DNA of 64,000 nt from Tomocerus qinae (taxonomy: Eukaryota > Arthropoda > Collembola > Entomobryomorpha > Tomoceridae), in contig CM034549.1 of NCBI GenBank assembly GCA_020055645.1, forward strand, positions 2,666,001 through 2,730,000. Reading direction: 5' to 3'. The notes under the pieces are model-generated. The model was given only the letters and a program-made list of their open reading frames with translations. It did not search any database and had not been told where the DNA came from. A program made the translations under genes and the position numbers. Below are positions 11,689 to 40,500 of the stretch, one piece after another; the first letter of the stretch is position 1; each line of letters starts with the position of its first letter.

Positions 11689-21192
<9,504 letters not shown>

Positions 21193-25408: not shown

Positions 25409-28400
25409 ATGTACACGTTGGCGATAGAATGTGGAGCAACGAGCTCAGAAGCATTTCTTGTGGATAAGAATGAGAATTCTCAAAAGCAAATGATTTTTGG
25501 TTCCGCAAACTTTCAACTCATGAACGAACCACAACTGGAAAGTTTCTTCTCAAAAATTCGGGAGTATTTTCTTGAGTTTGACGTAGAGGCGATTGGCGTG
25601 GGTATGCCTGGTATTTTGGACGATGCTGACAAACAGGTATGTAAATAATGTCCCTGATCTTATTTGATGGGGAGGATCTCGAGATATTCCATGGCATATG
25701 TATGTAATGGTATCTCATAAATCGTCATAAATTCCATAGTAGACATCCACTCCCGTATCAACGTTATAATATATTGTCAATTGTGTGTGAGAACTGTGCA
25801 CATGCTTTCCCTTTGAACATTTGTAGAATAAAACGAGGAAGAGAGTATGAAAGTGGGACAAGATAATATTTTTCAGGGATTTATAACGACGACTATATAC
25901 TCCTCTTTTAATAGTGTGTGGGGAAAGTAATCCGGAAATTGTGGCCAGACGTGAAAGGTCTGTGGATTGGGAATGATTTACAAACGGCTTTGGCATGTAT
26001 TGACGACGCATACGAATTGAGAGCTGTGGTCGTGGCCGGAACTGGTTCCTGCTGCTACGGGACAAATGGCGAAAATTCAGGGAAGGTCGGTGGTTATGGT
26101 CATCGCATAGGTAAGTAACACTTAACACATACATATACATTAGGTGAAAGCAATGAGGGGAACCAACAAATCCAAATTACGTAATTCCCTTGATCGTCTG
26201 TACGGAATTTCAAAGCTATTTCGTGCTGAGTCCAGCAAGAGACACCGGATGCATACTTATACAAGTTACAGGAATGTTTGCATTTATTTATGAGACGATT
26301 CTACTTACATGTTGTCTAAACTTGTCTACTTCTACATAACACTATACTGCACCTTTTACGCTTGTATCGACACTAAACTCGGATGTACTACAATGCCCTG
26401 CTATGTACTAAAACTCATTCAAATGCCTATCAAGTATCATAAATCAAGATGTCAACATTTTTTAAATGTGGCTCAATGGAACCAATTTCCAATGGAAATG
26501 AATATTATGTGGAATCTTAGTCATTGCATTATTAGGAGCAAGTATAAAATGGATTTATTGAGACATTTATTTATCTTTTGAACAATATCGTCAACTTTGA
26601 TGCTCATTTCAATGGTCTAATAGTTGTCAGTGTGTTTTAAATTAAACCGAGTTTAGTTAAGTACAAACGTAACGCTAATCAAAGCAAAGTTTTATAACAA
26701 TTGTTTGAAATTGGTTGTCTGTGACGCTTGTCTGAGATTGCATTTTGATTGTCTAAATCTCTACTGTATTATAATGCCAGTCTTAGATAGATCAATTTTA
26801 CTTACCTATATGTTTAAGTTGTTCCGGGAGTCACTGCAAGTAAGCCCTCGCGGCTTGAGCGGTAGCATAGTTCTACTAATCAATAGTAGTAACCATGCTC
26901 TCCCCCTAACACACACACTACCTATATGTTTATGTATATACTGGGCCCCCAGTAGTGTTATTGAATTTCCAAAGATTTGTGCGTTGACATTTGGTTTAAA
27001 TTTCGAAATATGCTAATGTTATCCCAGAGGATAGTTCCTGTTTTATGCAATAATATACATTATACATACATTGCATATATGCAGAAAACAATGAACTACA
27101 CTTTGGGTTAGTATTAGCATAAAATGATATAATGTATTAGCATTCGAAATTACGTCAAAATTGTAAAATCGTTGGTAGTCTTTTGAAATTCAATAACAAT
27201 CCTGGTGGCGTAGTACAGTGATATAAAAGCTGGAATGAAAACGTATTTCTACGTAGGTGATCGAGGGTCTGGTTATGCACTAGCGGAGAAAGCAATCCGA
27301 CTGGCCCTTCGCCAGCACGAACATAATTGCCCATTGATGCAAACGTTAGATTCAGCTGAAATTTCTTCAGATATGCTGTCTGCTATCATGGAACAAATTG
27401 GAATACGCACAATTAAGCAGCTCGTAATTTGGATGTTGTCAGCCAAGAAGGATGAAATCGCCTCATTGGCTGCTCTTGTTCTTCTCAAGTGGAAGCAAGG
27501 AGATGAGCTCGCGAAAAGCGTCGTGGTGGAAGCTATTCAGGATTTATCTGCTGACTGCATCTGTCTTGTTAACAAATTATTGAAAACTGTTAATCAAAGG
27601 GACAGAGTGGAAGGTGCTGATACTTCAGTTTTTAATCTGGGAATTGGACTCACAGGAAGTTTATTTACAAAAGACGCTGTCTTTGCTGACACCTTCAAAA
27701 GGTGTTTAGTCTCACAACTGCCAAAGGAAATTAGTGTAGGTAATTGTTCCATTGAGATTCTAGAGAGTACAGCTCTAGGGTCGGTGAAAGCCTTGCGGGA
27801 ATATACTCAGAAAACCCATTCAGAAAAGACATCTAGAGTGGAACCAACATTAGACGAGAGGGAGAAGCTTTTGGCAGAAAATATTTTGCCAGTGGCTCTA
27901 GGACTTTCTCTGACGGAACAGAGAAATGCGAAATCAATGTATTTGGATCGAATGCCTGTCGAAGAAGCCATTGATCTGATGATTGACGAGGAAAAGAGTA
28001 TCTTTGAGAGAATTCGTGAACAGAAGGAATCCATAGGAATTCTTGTGGACCGGGTGTGCACTGCATTTCAGAATGGTGGTCGGCTGTTTTATGTCGGTTG
28101 TGGGACAAGTGGACGTCTCGGAATTCTCGATGCGACGGAATGCCCACCGACTTTCAGGTCACCCCATGAATGGGTCCAGGGAATCATTGCTGGTGGCTTC
28201 TCTACTGTCAGTGTGGCCAAAGAAGGAGCGGAGGATTCCATCACGGATGGAATGAAAGCCATTGATGACAGAAAAATCAATAGCAAGGATATTGTCGTTG
28301 GTAAGCACTCTAAGTTTCTAAAGAATAAACAAAATTGCAAAAAACCGAAAAGCCTTGTCTCACGTATGGCCTACCAAAGGTAAAGGAAACCCTAAAAGCC

Positions 28401-29228
28401 ACCTTTGTCTGATCACATTCTCGATGAAAGATGACAGAGCAAACAGGAAACATGATTAATGAATGGCCTGCTAAACTTTAATTTTTCTTTGCATAGCTTT
28501 TTCGTAAGTTTTATTTCCTTGCGCAACTACATGAATTGAGTTTCTAGCAATATTATGAACAGATGAGTGAGAGATGTTGTCGATTCTGTGACAGACAGCA
28601 TTAAACTTACTTTGTAGTGCATGATCCGAACATTTCAACGAAAGTGCAGTATTTATAAGAGATGAAGTACATGTATGAGCTCGTTTCTTTAGTCACAGCT
28701 GCTTACATTCAGCTGAAAGCGAAGTCATTCATAACAGTACGCTGTAGTCATATTATTTTAAAATCCGAAATAAAATTTTGATGTGGTGTGGTTGAAGGTG
28801 TTATGGCCTGTGGGCGAACTCCTTATGTTTGGGGAGCGATTCACCGAGCGAAATCTCTGGAGGCTTTCACTGGCTGCTTAACATTTAATACGGAGCTTAA
28901 GTTGAAAATCGAACCGGATTTGTTCATTTCCATGAATCTCGGAGCAGAAGTTTTAACTGGGAGCACTCGACTAAAATGCGGCACAGCCACAAAATGCATT
29001 CTAAATATGCTGTCAACTCTGGCTATGGTTAAGTATGGTAAATGCTTTGAGAATCTGATGGTGGATTTGAACCCAGCCAATCAGAAATTGAAACAAAGGT
29101 CGCTGCGCATCGTTCTGCTTATGACAAGCCACGAAAAGAGGATTAGCGAGGAAGAAGCCAGGGATATCCTCATCAAAAATAACTATGATATACGCAGCAC
29201 TGTACAATCAATACGTGATCTTCCCTAA
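25409..29228 (+). CDS. BadF/NAGK-type sugar kinase fused to MurQ-type MurNAc-6-phosphate etherase
   Basis: Exons 25409-25636, 25915-26110, 27257-28300 and 28798-29228 join in frame (phases 0, 1, 1) to give 632 aa. An in-frame TAA lies just before the ATG, fixing the start. Residues 1 to about 330 are a BadF/BadG/NAGK-like kinase: ECGATSSEAFLVD (phosphate loop), GIGVGMPG, the catalytic Asp in GNDLQTALA, GTGSCC and GGYGHRIGDRGSG. Residues about 355-632 are a MurQ/SIS-domain etherase: LSLTEQRN, YVGCGTSGRLGILDATECPP, KEGAED, GRTPYV, EVLTGSTRLKCGTATK, NLMVDLNPAN, and a UBA-like C-terminal helix pair. The catalytic Glu pair (about 436 and 467) has the same spacing as E. coli Glu83/Glu114. Expected role: phosphorylate MurNAc (or GlcNAc), then cleave the lactyl ether to GlcNAc-6-P and D-lactate. 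The activities are inferred. The MurQ homologue GCKR lacks such a kinase. Confidence 0.92.
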
Positions 29229-31961
29229 CCAAATGCAAATGAAATGCTAATAATAAATAAAGTTCATTTACTGACATTTATTTCTTAACTTTGTTTCACA
29301 ACATTGTATTTTGTCCAATACATGGTTCATTTGTATCATATAGACATTCATCTTAGATAAGTTTTAGCTTTCGTATATCATTAAGACTTCATGTTACATT
29401 TTGTATTCTACAGTCAATTCAATCCTATTAAGTAAAGTACGTACATATAGGTACAATCATTTTCAATTCGTGCACAGTTGCATCTGTTTAATTATTTCGT
29501 ACATACCTACTTGCTGTTAATACAATTAGGCATGTTTTTCTGAGCAGTCATTCATTGTTTAATAGTAACCAATTTTTTTCTTAATCGTCTCCCAAGCATG
29601 GTGAAAGTTGAAAAGATGATTTATAATAGCTATAATTGGGTAATTTGTAATTGAACACCTCTTCATAATCTAATAAATTAGCTCGTTTCAGTATCGACTT
29701 CCTGAACTGCTTATAGCGTGGATTTTTCTGCAGATGCTGATGTTCCACTTTATTAGTTTTTACATCAGTGTGCTTTGCACAATTTATACAAACGTGGCTA
29801 TCTACCTATATGTAATAATACTATGCAGGTATTAACTTCTTGGGAAACGGTTCTGAGTGAGGATTAGGGTAACAGAGTAACTTTCGTAATGTAAGCAGTG
29901 AAGCGCTACTGAAGTAAGCTTTGCTTAAGCAATTGCTTTCTCTTCCCTAATGCTTTTATTTTTTCGTAACCCTATGACGCAGAGGAAACTTTTACTCCGA
30001 TTTGTGTCCATTAGATGAATGGAGAAAGTGAAGAGAAAGAAAGTGAAAGCCAATTACCTCGCTCGAGTCAGAACTTGGCTTTCTGATGAATTAACCAGCA
30101 TGAACATATACAGAAACAAGATGAGTATACAAAATGAAAGTTGGTAAAAGCTTATGAAACATTTGAAGGAAAGTTAAAACATTTTTAAATAGATGAGCTT
30201 AAGAACTTTCGGAAGTTAGAATTTTATGTGGGCAATTTATTTGATGCCATAATGGAATTGTGGCATAGTTTATGGTATCCTGTGCGGGTTGTGCTCTGGC
30301 ACTGTTTTTGTGCACTTAAATTTTAAAATAGTTCCATTCCCATCTTCAGACAGAGTATGAATACTTTGAGATTGAGCTTGATTCCCATCCAGTCAGACAG
30401 CATTACTATCTAGATGGAGAAAGCATTAGGCCTAAACATTCTTCTTGGTTAGCTCTTTATGACATGCAATGCTACATAACACGTATATAGCCTACATACT
30501 TGTATTATGCCTTTTAGGTCAGGGAGAGCGGATTTTGTGAAGCCCTCTCTGACATATGCTACAAATAGTACCCTACATTATTTCCCTATCAATTTCAGAT
30601 AACTAAAATAAATTCCAACTCACTCTGCATTCTGCAACATTCAAATTCACACGGTTAGATTAGATCTCGTAGCTACTGTGGTGGTCTGTTGTAGTACAAA
30701 TACTTCACATTTACACTTCTATCTATCACAAGTTGCACAGTACATGTTGAAATTGAAAGTAGATGTATTTGACGTATTATTGGTATATGCTAGCAAAGAC
30801 GGGTGATATCTTTAAAGATGTGTTTGTTTATTTTTTAATTGTTGCCCTATTTAGGATTAGTGAACTCAGATCACCTAATTTAGAGAATACCAGGGTTAGT
30901 ACCTATTTTTATCACCATCATTTTTCGTTTAGTTATCATGTAGATTGTATTGTGTATTGATAGGCCTAAATCGTGATTTTGTGATAATGAAATTTCTTGT
31001 TTCACATTTTTATACAATATGTTTTATCTAATTGCTTTGTATCAGGGCATGTGAATACCTATTGTGTATAACATGAAGTTTGTTCTATGTTGTAAGTTGT
31101 AATTTAGTCAATTAAGGTTTTAAAAAATCAAACACCTAGTAGTTGTACATACAGACTTTGTTATTAAAACAAAACAGACAAACCTACACATAATACAGGA
31201 ACATTATTAAAAAATTCTAAAGAAAAATATATATCATCCTACGTATACTGTACCTATAAAATGCTGCTGTGAAAAAATGGATGATAGATTTATACATACT
31301 GTTTCCACTATTAGTTTCAAAATCACATGAGTGTAATATTTACCGCATTATTATATACATTATGGTAAGCAACAAGACTATACTTTTTCAAATCACATAC
31401 TAAATAACTTATTTTCCAATGCTGTGCCAGATAACACTCCTTGCTTAAGATTTCAAGCTTTGGTATACATCAAGCAATCATATACTTTCCTATAGACTTC
31501 CATTTAGTACATTCAATTACTTATAATTATAAATACATCTAAACTCTGTTTAGACCTGTTTACAGTTTGCTTAAACATTTTAATATAACATTTATCTGTA
31601 CTTTTCCATAATGTAATTTATTCAATTATTAGCAATGTTTAAGACTTAGACATGGTCATTCTCAATTCTTAGACTTGTTAACTAATGAAACAAAGTGTGC
31701 GGTAATTCCACAACTCCAGAAAAATAATGACTCTAATCATTTAATACACAAAATGCTATGGTGTGGTGTGAGTAGTTGGTTTGGTATTGCACATGTTTGC
31801 ATAGATAGGTTACGTTATAATAATATTAACTAAAGAAATAATTTATGTCTTAATCATCCCTTTACTTCCTTAATGCCAGTATCCGCTACAGCAGTTGCAT
31901 CTGCTTGAGTAATAGCCTACTAATATTAGTTTTAATACCTTTTCCTCTTTCATAATGTTAC
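29229..31961. other. Gene-free stretch after the fusion gene
   Basis: It starts with a probable short 3'UTR (AATAAA at 29252). The remainder is AT-rich with no coding exon that I can recognise. I looked on the minus strand for the missing folliculin C-terminal exons and saw none. Confidence 0.45.
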
Positions 31962-37542: not shown

Positions 37543-40500
37543 TTAATCCGTGCATATTGCACCACTGGCTACATCCTCAATACAAGAGTAATTGTGTACA
37601 TCTGTGATATCTGTGCATTCTTCTAATTGTTGTGTTAACAAGTACTTCTTAGCATTATTCTTAAAACTATTAATATTATTAGAGTCTCTTATAGTTACTG
37701 GTATGCTGTACCATAGTTTAAGTCCGGTATGACTCAACGTTTTTTTGTATAACTCCGTTTTCCCATTAAACGAGGGTATGGTATGTACATTGCTTCTAGT
37801 TACAATAGTATTAATCGCATTAAAATCAATATAATTAGAAAAATAGTCAGGGCAGGTTTCGTTAAAAATAGTATATGTCAACTTAAGTATTTCTAGCTTA
37901 TACATTTGATTAGGGAATAACCAATTGAGTGTTGAGGTAATATCATGTTTCACTGAATCATATTTGCCTTGCCCTAGTACGAATCGACCTAATCTACGAA
38001 CCAGCTTTTCTATTAAGTTTAGATTAAATTGTGGAGCTGTACCCCCAAATAGCTGACATATATCTGATAATAGGCATAATTTGAGTATTTACTACAGCTT
38101 TACGATTAGCCATAGTAAGATAAGGTTGAAGCGGATATAGAGACCATAGAATAGTATTGCACCTTGACATAACTTTACTAGTGTGTGCAGTCCAATTTAG
38201 TTGAGAATCTATAATAAGACCCAAGCACTTAATACTATCAACACTCTTAACAACAGTATCATTAATCTTAAAACTAACATTTCCTAGTGACTTTACAATG
38301 TGAGGTCTTCCAATTACCATGAATTGGGTTTTATCAACATTTAATTCCATTCTATTACAGTTCATCCAAGACAGCACATTCTGCATATCTTCTTCAATTA
38401 AATGAATAAGAGCAGCTATGCTACTAGGTGGGCCAGCAATAGATATGGTTGTATCATCGGCAAATAAAATACAAAGACTATTTTTTATGTGTATTGGTAA
38501 GTCATTAATATAAATGGAAAAGAGAATTGGGCCTAATATACTACCTTGGGGTACTCCTAAATCAGTATATCCGACACTAGAAACATTATCCTTATTTACA
38601 AAAACAAATTGACCACGATTCTCTAAATATGCATTGAACCATTTTGATTCTATGCCGTACCATTCTAACTTATTAATAAGGATATCTCTAGAAACTTTAT
38701 CAAATGCTTTACTCAAGTCTAATGATAATAACAAGCATACATTACCTAGGTCGATATTTTTATAGAAAACTCAGTAATTGCTATTTGAGCATGTACAGTA
38801 GAGTGTTTCGACCTGAAGCCAAACTGTTGCGAGCATAGAACACTACTGTTATTAAGGTACTCTACCAGACTATGATAAATACATTTTTCCATAATTTTAA
38901 GCAGTACAGGCTGATTACTAATCGGTCTTAAGTCTTTAGGGTGGGTCACATCAGGTAATTTTGGAGACGGAATGATTTTAGAAATTTTATAATTATCTGG
39001 TACTACTCCATGTCTGGTACTTAAGTTAATAATATTAAGAATTTCCTGGCCTACATTAGGTGAGTAGATACTATATTCTAACATTATTGGGGCTATACCC
39101 ATACAGTCTTCTCTTTTACTAGTCGTATTGTTTAAACTTTTCCATGCCTTATATAAATCAAAAAGATTATAACTAGGAATAATAAAATATGTACTACAAT
39201 TGTAAATATTATCAGGTTTGGTAGGAAAAGGTGGGTAATTAACATTAGGATTAGTGGTACTTATACTAATAAAGTAATTATTAATACTATCTGCAGGGAG
39301 TGTAACTTTGCTAAAGTTTTTAGGTTTAGTATTAACAAATGATTTAATACCATTGACAGGGCCTTTCTTTTCAATGGCAAGGTTTACCTGGTCTTAAGTA
39401 TCTTTAGCTATACTTAACTTAACCATTTTTTTCAATTCTCTATATTTATCTACATTATCAACTGTCGGGGACATACATTTAATTTTGTAAGCTTTGTCAC
39501 GTTGATATATAAGTGAAGTAGTAGATTGTGTAAAGGTAAGTTTTTTAGGATAACGAACAAATGTTTTACTTACTTTAGGAGCTAAGTCATCATAGATGCA
39601 TTGTATTTTACTACTCAACATATCAGATTTACAATTTAAGTCAGTCAAATTATCATCAAAAGTCATATTAATTACCTTAAGAGCTAAAGAACATACGTCA
39701 ATGCTATCATAATTACGATAGGTAATTGTATCTTTAGGATACTTAGTCTTTTTATCGCTATTAATATTTGCTGTCACAAGACAGTGGTCAGAAAGCTTAG
39801 GGTCATTTACAACTACATTAGTTACAGTAGATATATTATTAGTAATGAATAAATCCAATATAGAGTCTTTTCTTGTAGGTATATTAACAAGTTGATAAAG
39901 GTCATAACTCTTGAGTATTGAATTTAATTTGTCATATGTATTTTTGGTCTTAAGGTTAAAATCACCATGAATATAAATTACTTTTCCTAGAAGACTTATT
40001 TCTGATAAAAGCAAATCAAAAATCATCATATCATTTTCTATGCAGTCACTTGAGTAGTCAGGTGATCTATACACACACATTACCATAAAAGATTTTTCAT
40101 ACTTGTACTGAATACATAGGGCTAGGTATTCTACATTACAATTTTTATCAAATTCGTCAGCACATTTAAAATGATATTCTTTACACTTGTATAAGTCATT
40201 AACGAAAATACATACTCCACCACCACCGTTTTTATTAATATTATCTCTATCCTTACGTAGTAGGTTATACCCAGGTATAGTAATAGGAATAATAAATTTA
40301 TTCAGCCAAGTCTCACTTACACAGAGAATATCGATCATATTATTACATAGAAGATAAGACACATGAAACATTTTCTTTTTCAGGGTACGTATGTTAATAT
40401 GGGCTATGGAGAGTTTCTGTGTATCGGACTTGTCCGAAAATGGTGACTACTTTTTTTACGAGTGGTAACATTAATATCATTGATTGTCATGTTACCTTCA

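Follow-up and report, generated by a model that had tools for sequence, protein, structure and literature searches.

The gene described here, from the springtail Tomocerus qinae, encodes in one polypeptide chain a sugar kinase of the BadF/NAGK type followed by a MurQ-type etherase, the enzyme that acts on N-acetylmuramic acid 6-phosphate (MurNAc-6-P). It lies on the forward (+) strand, at positions 25409–29228, of a 64,000-nucleotide stretch that we call the window; this is C4:2666001–2730000, part of a 33.8-Mb contig in an assembly of 334 Mb and 115 contigs. The gene and its fused architecture are real. Judged by sequence comparison, the protein is a member of a family of bacterial kinase–MurQ fusions, and is most like the type found in Verrucomicrobiales. 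The explanation that we consider fairly probable is that a ready-made fusion was acquired by horizontal transfer, that the introns came later, and that the enzyme works on MurNAc. The features of the gene, in window coordinates, are as follows.

25409–25636, + strand: exon 1; N-terminal kinase segment (residues 1–76) with the start codon, and a GT donor at 25637
25637–25914, + strand: intron 1; 278 bp, phase 0, GT-AG
25915–26110, + strand: exon 2; region of the kinase catalytic Asp (D97), GTGS loop (118–121) and GGYGHRI, with an AG acceptor and a GT donor
26111–27256, + strand: intron 2; 1146 bp, phase 1, GT-AG
27257–28300, + strand: exon 3; remainder of the kinase, a linker at about 330–350 and the first MurQ half with ECPPT and EGAED; the fusion junction lies here in an uninterrupted frame
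28301–28797, + strand: intron 3; 497 bp, phase 1, GT-AG
28798–29228, + strand: exon 4; the remaining half of MurQ, with ACGRTP, LTGSTRLK and NLMVD, and the stop codon TAA at 29226–29228
29252–29257, + strand: AATAAA, a possible polyadenylation signal by sequence match only, 23 bp 3' of the stop codon

The four exons join in frame at GT-AG sites to give a protein of 632 amino acids (aa), which bears out the gene model of an earlier, sequence-only reading of this DNA; the four MurQ motifs named there are all located in the product (GTSGRLG at 424–430, TECPP at 435–439, EGAED at 464–468 and LTGSTRLK at 542–549). Exon 3 lies within a stop-to-stop frame of 389 codons, of which about 2e-9 would be expected in a window of the same composition. 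When the animal protein is aligned with five bacterial fusions, each of the three splice joins lies in a region without gaps. Because the junction between kinase and MurQ is inside exon 3, the fusion holds whatever the splice model, and an artefact of wrong exon joining is ruled out. An Rfam search of the window gave no match.

Both halves are recognizable. The N-terminal half matches Pfam BcrAD_BadFG (PF01869) over residues 6–294 with 46.1 bits (gathering cut-off 31.5), in keeping with the ASKHA-type sugar kinase domain first proposed. Its best match among solved structures is the MurNAc/N-acetylglucosamine (GlcNAc) kinase MurK (PDB 8zo3; E 2.8e-16), an unfused enzyme that aligns to residues 59–250 only; NAGK comes behind (E 4.6e-5). 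The C-terminal half carries a GKRP-type SIS domain (Pfam, residues 405–506) and matches the NCBIfam MurQ subfamily PRK05441 over residues 359–626 with 313 bits (cut-off 168); PRK12570, likewise a MurQ subfamily, also scores above its own cut-off. The best solved matches here are MurQ chains (E 4.9e-64). The stand-alone enzymes 1nri, 4lzj and 4s12 match at E 5e-64 to 3e-61, and differ from the animal protein in having no fused kinase and, usually, a longer C-terminal tail. Vertebrate GCKR (GKRP) also contains MurQ-related SIS domains, but it has two MurQ-like halves and no kinase, and its match is far weaker than that of MurQ (E 7.8e-21 vs 4.9e-64). The animal protein has a kinase domain and a single MurQ unit, and on this architecture identity with GCKR is ruled out; similarity and architecture speak against placing the MurQ half in the GCKR clade.

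The kinase half is not the animal's own NAGK either. Though also a BadF/ASKHA-type sugar kinase, NAGK is encoded by a separate, multi-exon gene on another contig, C5, whose joined exons match solved NAGK with E 1.7e-71, and in the kinase tree it forms a long branch of its own, apart from the fused kinase; the two genes are thus distinct. The refuting outcome named in the sequence-only reading, in which both domains would fall within animal NAGK and GCKR clades, is contradicted for the kinase by this tree. A weak BadF-like match with an internal stop, at C3:44961011–44961145 (E 0.008), is a relic or a chance resemblance.

Bacteria, too, have proteins in which these two domains are fused in this order. 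We found 56 such open reading frames (ORFs), 55 from samples of Verrucomicrobiota and one from Hydrogenedentes. A scan of contigs for relatives supplied 11 of them among the best 80 of 594 confirmed relatives (10 from Verrucomicrobiota, one from Hydrogenedentes). In 288 genomes sampled from the phylum of one fusion, that of a Phragmitibacter sp. metagenome-assembled genome (L008), 115 matched, many through one domain only, and fused ORFs were present in 19 of 28 newly extracted loci, bringing the total to 30. A further 288 genomes, sampled from its order, gave 121 matches and fusions at all 26 newly extracted loci. Matches were also obtained in 60 of 68 genomes of Hydrogenedentota, where many frames of about 570–810 aa carry both domains; the fusion thus looks widespread in this phylum too, in forms less closely related to the animal protein than those of Verrucomicrobiales. 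In Planctomycetota, 174 of 294 genomes matched, and none of the matches listed starts before query residue 333 or reaches into the kinase. A first impression from tblastn that Rhizobium plasmids carry fusions gave way, at the three loci examined (L003, L005 and L007), to adjoining but separate genes; at the Thermomicrobium and Bradyrhizobium loci, too, kinase and MurQ genes are separate neighbours. Viral contigs gave 44 pattern matches, none of them a relative. Ten neighbouring frames at six bacterial loci showed no cluster of wall-metabolism genes. An AlphaFold model of the Phragmitibacter fusion reached a mean predicted local distance difference test (pLDDT) score of 79.2 and a predicted template modelling score of 0.53, with residues 397–438 of the MurQ part below 50 in pLDDT.

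The family seems to have been little noticed so far: our literature search found no paper on it. A different wall-enzyme fusion, MurB–MurC, is on record for Verrucomicrobium spinosum (PMC4803751). The animal protein has the make-up that defines the family—a BadF-type kinase followed by MurQ in one chain of ~600–650 aa—and aligns end to end with five of the bacterial fusions at 35–40% identity. With the Verrucomicrobiales members it has in common its domains, their order, its length, a short C-terminus and six near-exclusive residues, described below; it departs from them in its three introns, in short insertions (162–171, 260–272, 303–306 and 601–604) and in some substitutions at conserved sites. 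The notion that this architecture is undescribed in nature, or was made in the animal, is not supported by these findings. Verrucomicrobiota and Hydrogenedentota commonly carry the same fusion, and the animal therefore most likely acquired it in finished form. Its novelty for an animal extends no further than our searches do.

Trees of each domain, and of the whole protein, place the animal sequence with bacterial fusions, in support of the bacterial origin first suggested for it. The animal protein groups with the same 12 fusions in the kinase tree (50 rows; support 99/97), in a quick MurQ tree (113 rows; Shimodaira–Hasegawa-like approximate likelihood ratio 94), in a more careful MurQ tree that used 41 of the 82 separate MurQ rows (72 rows; 100/93), and in the full-length tree (48 rows; 100/98). 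In a larger set, with 26 more rows and without unfused pairs, it is sister to all 38 fusions of the enlarged clade (97/94). This 38-member clade is what we mean by ‘Verrucomicrobiales fusions’: for six of the original 12 the name or placement is given by their records, and genomes of the order sample supplied the remaining 32. One order-sample genome (G272) has its fusion in the other verrucomicrobial clade. Joining the animal protein to unfused kinase and MurQ pairs is rejected by the approximately unbiased (AU) test (p 2.7e-5). We also filtered MurQ positions for those at which the animal residue occurs in at least 80% of the 38 fusions and in at most 30% of the 82 separate MurQ proteins. 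Nine residues passed, of which six are near-exclusive (R442, W501, F519, P529, L564 and N581), being present in 34–38 of the 38 Verrucomicrobiales fusions, 0–2 of 18 other fusions and 0–4 of 82 separate MurQ proteins. The tail points the same way: it extends 53 aa beyond NLMVD in the animal protein, against 67–93 aa in 68 of 77 measured stand-alone bacterial MurQ proteins, and is short in 22 of 25 measured fusions (five more could not be measured). A short tail supports kinship with the fusions without proving it. The best trees nest the animal protein next to a single Verrucomicrobiales clade, and the six residues favour this over a position as sister to all verrucomicrobial fusions, an arrangement that topology tests do not reject.

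Several results weigh against this placement, or against a fully conventional MurQ and kinase. The animal branch is long (1.4–2.6 changes per column), which makes its position less sure, and the tree package warns about long-branch rows of this kind. A topology that unites the 26 other verrucomicrobial fusions without the animal is not rejected by the AU test (p 0.062; 0.196 for MurQ alone). The six diagnostic residues were chosen by the filter and not named beforehand; the three other filtered positions (476, 480 and 554) are less exclusive, occurring in 6–16 of the 18 other fusions; and at eight MurQ positions found with looser limits (378, 405, 406, 489, 499, 560, 561 and 562) the animal protein has the state of separate MurQ proteins, not that of the clade. 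The tail is also shorter in seven of the 77 separate MurQ proteins. The protein misses the TIGR00274 equivalog cut-off (279.9 vs 302 bits), as does the Phragmitibacter fusion (296.8); four other bacterial sequences, L011, L013, L016 and L060, reach it. The initial description of a ‘complete MurQ’ is slightly generous with regard to the 53-aa tail and TIGR00274. Departures at conserved sites comprise C423 and T458 in MurQ, with C494 at a position just under the conservation limit, and A5, P67, W220 and S317 in the kinase.

The active-site motifs are kept. A conservation threshold of 93% over 138 rows defines 55 MurQ columns, and the animal protein retains 53 of them, among these the glutamates E436, E464 and E467, which are invariant in all 138. 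We take E436 and E467 to be the catalytic pair, equivalent to E83 and E114 of Escherichia coli MurQ. For the kinase, a threshold of 90% over 74 rows defines 23 columns; 19 are retained, D97, GTGS (118–121) and D143 among them. Because these motifs are retained, it is likely that the protein converts MurNAc to GlcNAc-6-phosphate (GlcNAc-6-P) and D-lactate; that both activities, kinase and etherase, are present seems to us probable. In the known route, the sugar is phosphorylated to MurNAc-6-P, which MurQ then splits into GlcNAc-6-P and D-lactic acid (excerpts of PMC5371407). In the animal, the N-terminal domain would phosphorylate MurNAc, and perhaps GlcNAc, at O6 with ATP, and the C-terminal domain would cleave the lactyl ether of the MurNAc-6-P so formed. 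The host's ordinary deacetylase and glucosamine-6-phosphate (GlcN-6-P) deaminase would then carry the sugar onward to fructose-6-phosphate. A GlcN-6-P deaminase is clearly present in the genome (E 3.5e-85); an exon-by-exon search for a nagA-type gene gave a weak match, below cut-off (E 4.7e-7), one piece of which contains stops. Given the kept motifs and the downstream gene matches, the animal could plausibly salvage sugar from bacterial walls, and the role of the enzyme would lie in using or clearing bacteria that are eaten or hosted. Transcription, the two activities, MurNAc as the substrate and this role are all things that we infer.

How the gene came to be where it is can be envisaged in more than one way. 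On the reading that we prefer, an already-fused gene passed from a bacterium of, or near, Verrucomicrobiales into a pancrustacean lineage, either directly or by way of another eukaryote; it then would have gained three introns and a host-like composition while its active-site motifs were kept. Gain of introns after transfer had been proposed before and is supported here. The three introns also hint at age, and with the long animal branch they lend some weight to an older eukaryotic acquisition, for example by bacteria-eating protists; the animal would then have inherited the gene or received it from a protist, and the enzyme would work likewise. Excerpts of Butenko et al. 2020 (PMC7052976) report bacterial-type MurQ in free-living protists, and excerpts of PMC6925433 report transcripts for a GlcNAc kinase and an etherase in a ciliate. 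We regard this course of events as unlikely, though it is the strongest of the alternatives, the six diagnostic residues still linking the gene to Verrucomicrobiales. Bacterial contamination or an assembly chimera, which the presence of a bacterial-type protein in an animal assembly brings to mind, is ruled out for practical purposes by the three introns, the 33.8-Mb contig and the animal genes on it that flank the locus. The introns have the GC content of the host (0.34–0.36), third codon positions are near those of host genes (0.43 vs 0.31–0.38), and the MurQ part is at most 55% identical to any of the matches listed.

The domains might also have been kept for another use, the kinase acting on GlcNAc or muropeptides and MurQ being weak or regulatory, as in GCKR. 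Mammalian NAGK phosphorylates muramyl dipeptide in immune sensing, and GCKR shows that relatives of MurQ can turn into regulators. C494 in place of Ser in the GRTP loop, C423 and T458, together with P67, W220 and S317 in the kinase, would suit such a change of function; the invariant E436, E464 and E467 and the 53 of 55 near-invariant columns retained, like the single MurQ unit in place of the two halves of GCKR, argue against it, and we think it somewhat less likely still than an older acquisition. That the gene is a pseudogene or an unexpressed insertion is very improbable: its 632 codons run without a stop or frameshift, its splice sites are intact, and its active-site motifs are conserved despite long divergence. 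Acquisition of a ready-made fusion that would still act on MurNAc remains the explanation of choice.

This locus is the only one in the genome that matches TIGR00274. The window also contains pieces of MCM, Folliculin and glutaminase genes and a reverse transcriptase; the last belongs, with an endonuclease-like frame, to pieces of a non-LTR (long terminal repeat) retrotransposon at 37543–40446 (− strand). Two adjoining tandem arrays of a 144-bp unit (17393–18051 and 18062–18659), with consensuses that are reverse complements of one another, form an inverted satellite pair, and are surrounded by arrays of a related-looking, AT-rich unit of 40–41 bp (16271–16882, 19177–19344 and 19765–20437). 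Elsewhere, contig C1 includes a long stretch of mitochondrial genome at about 36669500–36676200, either a recent nuclear insertion or an assembly join, with COX1 in frame under the invertebrate mitochondrial code; contig C81 and the region near C1:139.1 Mb have further COX1 matches. Along the long stretch the tRNA genes run I-Q-M, W-C-Y, COX1, Leu(taa), Lys-Asp, Gly, A-R-N-S-E-F, other protein genes having been read by eye. Leu between COX1 and COX2 is a mark of Pancrustacea, and the order suggests a fit with a pancrustacean host. A fungal isopenicillin N synthase, used as a probe in a test for springtail ancestry, had its best hit at C1:120031245–120032126, an intronless 374-aa frame (29% identity) that resembles 2-oxoglutarate-dependent oxygenases and is another candidate for horizontal origin; inspection by eye of nearby frames of at least 110 aa, without a family search, revealed no peptide synthetase.

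To our knowledge, animals are generally taken to be without the two steps that use of MurNAc requires, and a single acquired bifunctional gene would supply the two at once. Our literature search found no paper on a fused MurNAc kinase–etherase in eukaryotes, and the novelty of the gene is limited by Veiga-da-Cunha et al. 2009, where relatives in eukaryotes, and perhaps fused forms, may be described; the main text of the Folsomia genome paper (PMC5490193) mentions neither etherase, nor muram-, nor peptidoglycan. A close precedent is that of Rinke et al. 2026 (PMC13320244), excerpts of which report murQ from Spiroplasma in eight species of Camponotini, a transfer described there as previously unreported and potentially unique to these ants. 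Both cases involve an arthropod MurQ from bacteria. The ant gene differs in its Spiroplasma donor, in its identity (~75% to bacterial references, on average, for clear-cut clade-specific ant transfers), and in that those excerpts mention no kinase fusion, whereas the springtail gene is diverged, intron-bearing and of verrucomicrobial type. The animal fusion weakens the suggestion that such a transfer is unique to Camponotini, and points to a donor of a different kind. It is possible, at a little under an even chance in our estimate, that an arthropod lineage domesticated a verrucomicrobial one-chain MurNAc kinase–etherase and runs the complete route from MurNAc to fructose-6-phosphate, so that bacterial wall sugar is eaten or cleared by the animal rather than by microbes in its gut. 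If this is true, the springtail would have an animal enzyme that catabolizes MurNAc, gained as one gene with both of the missing steps.

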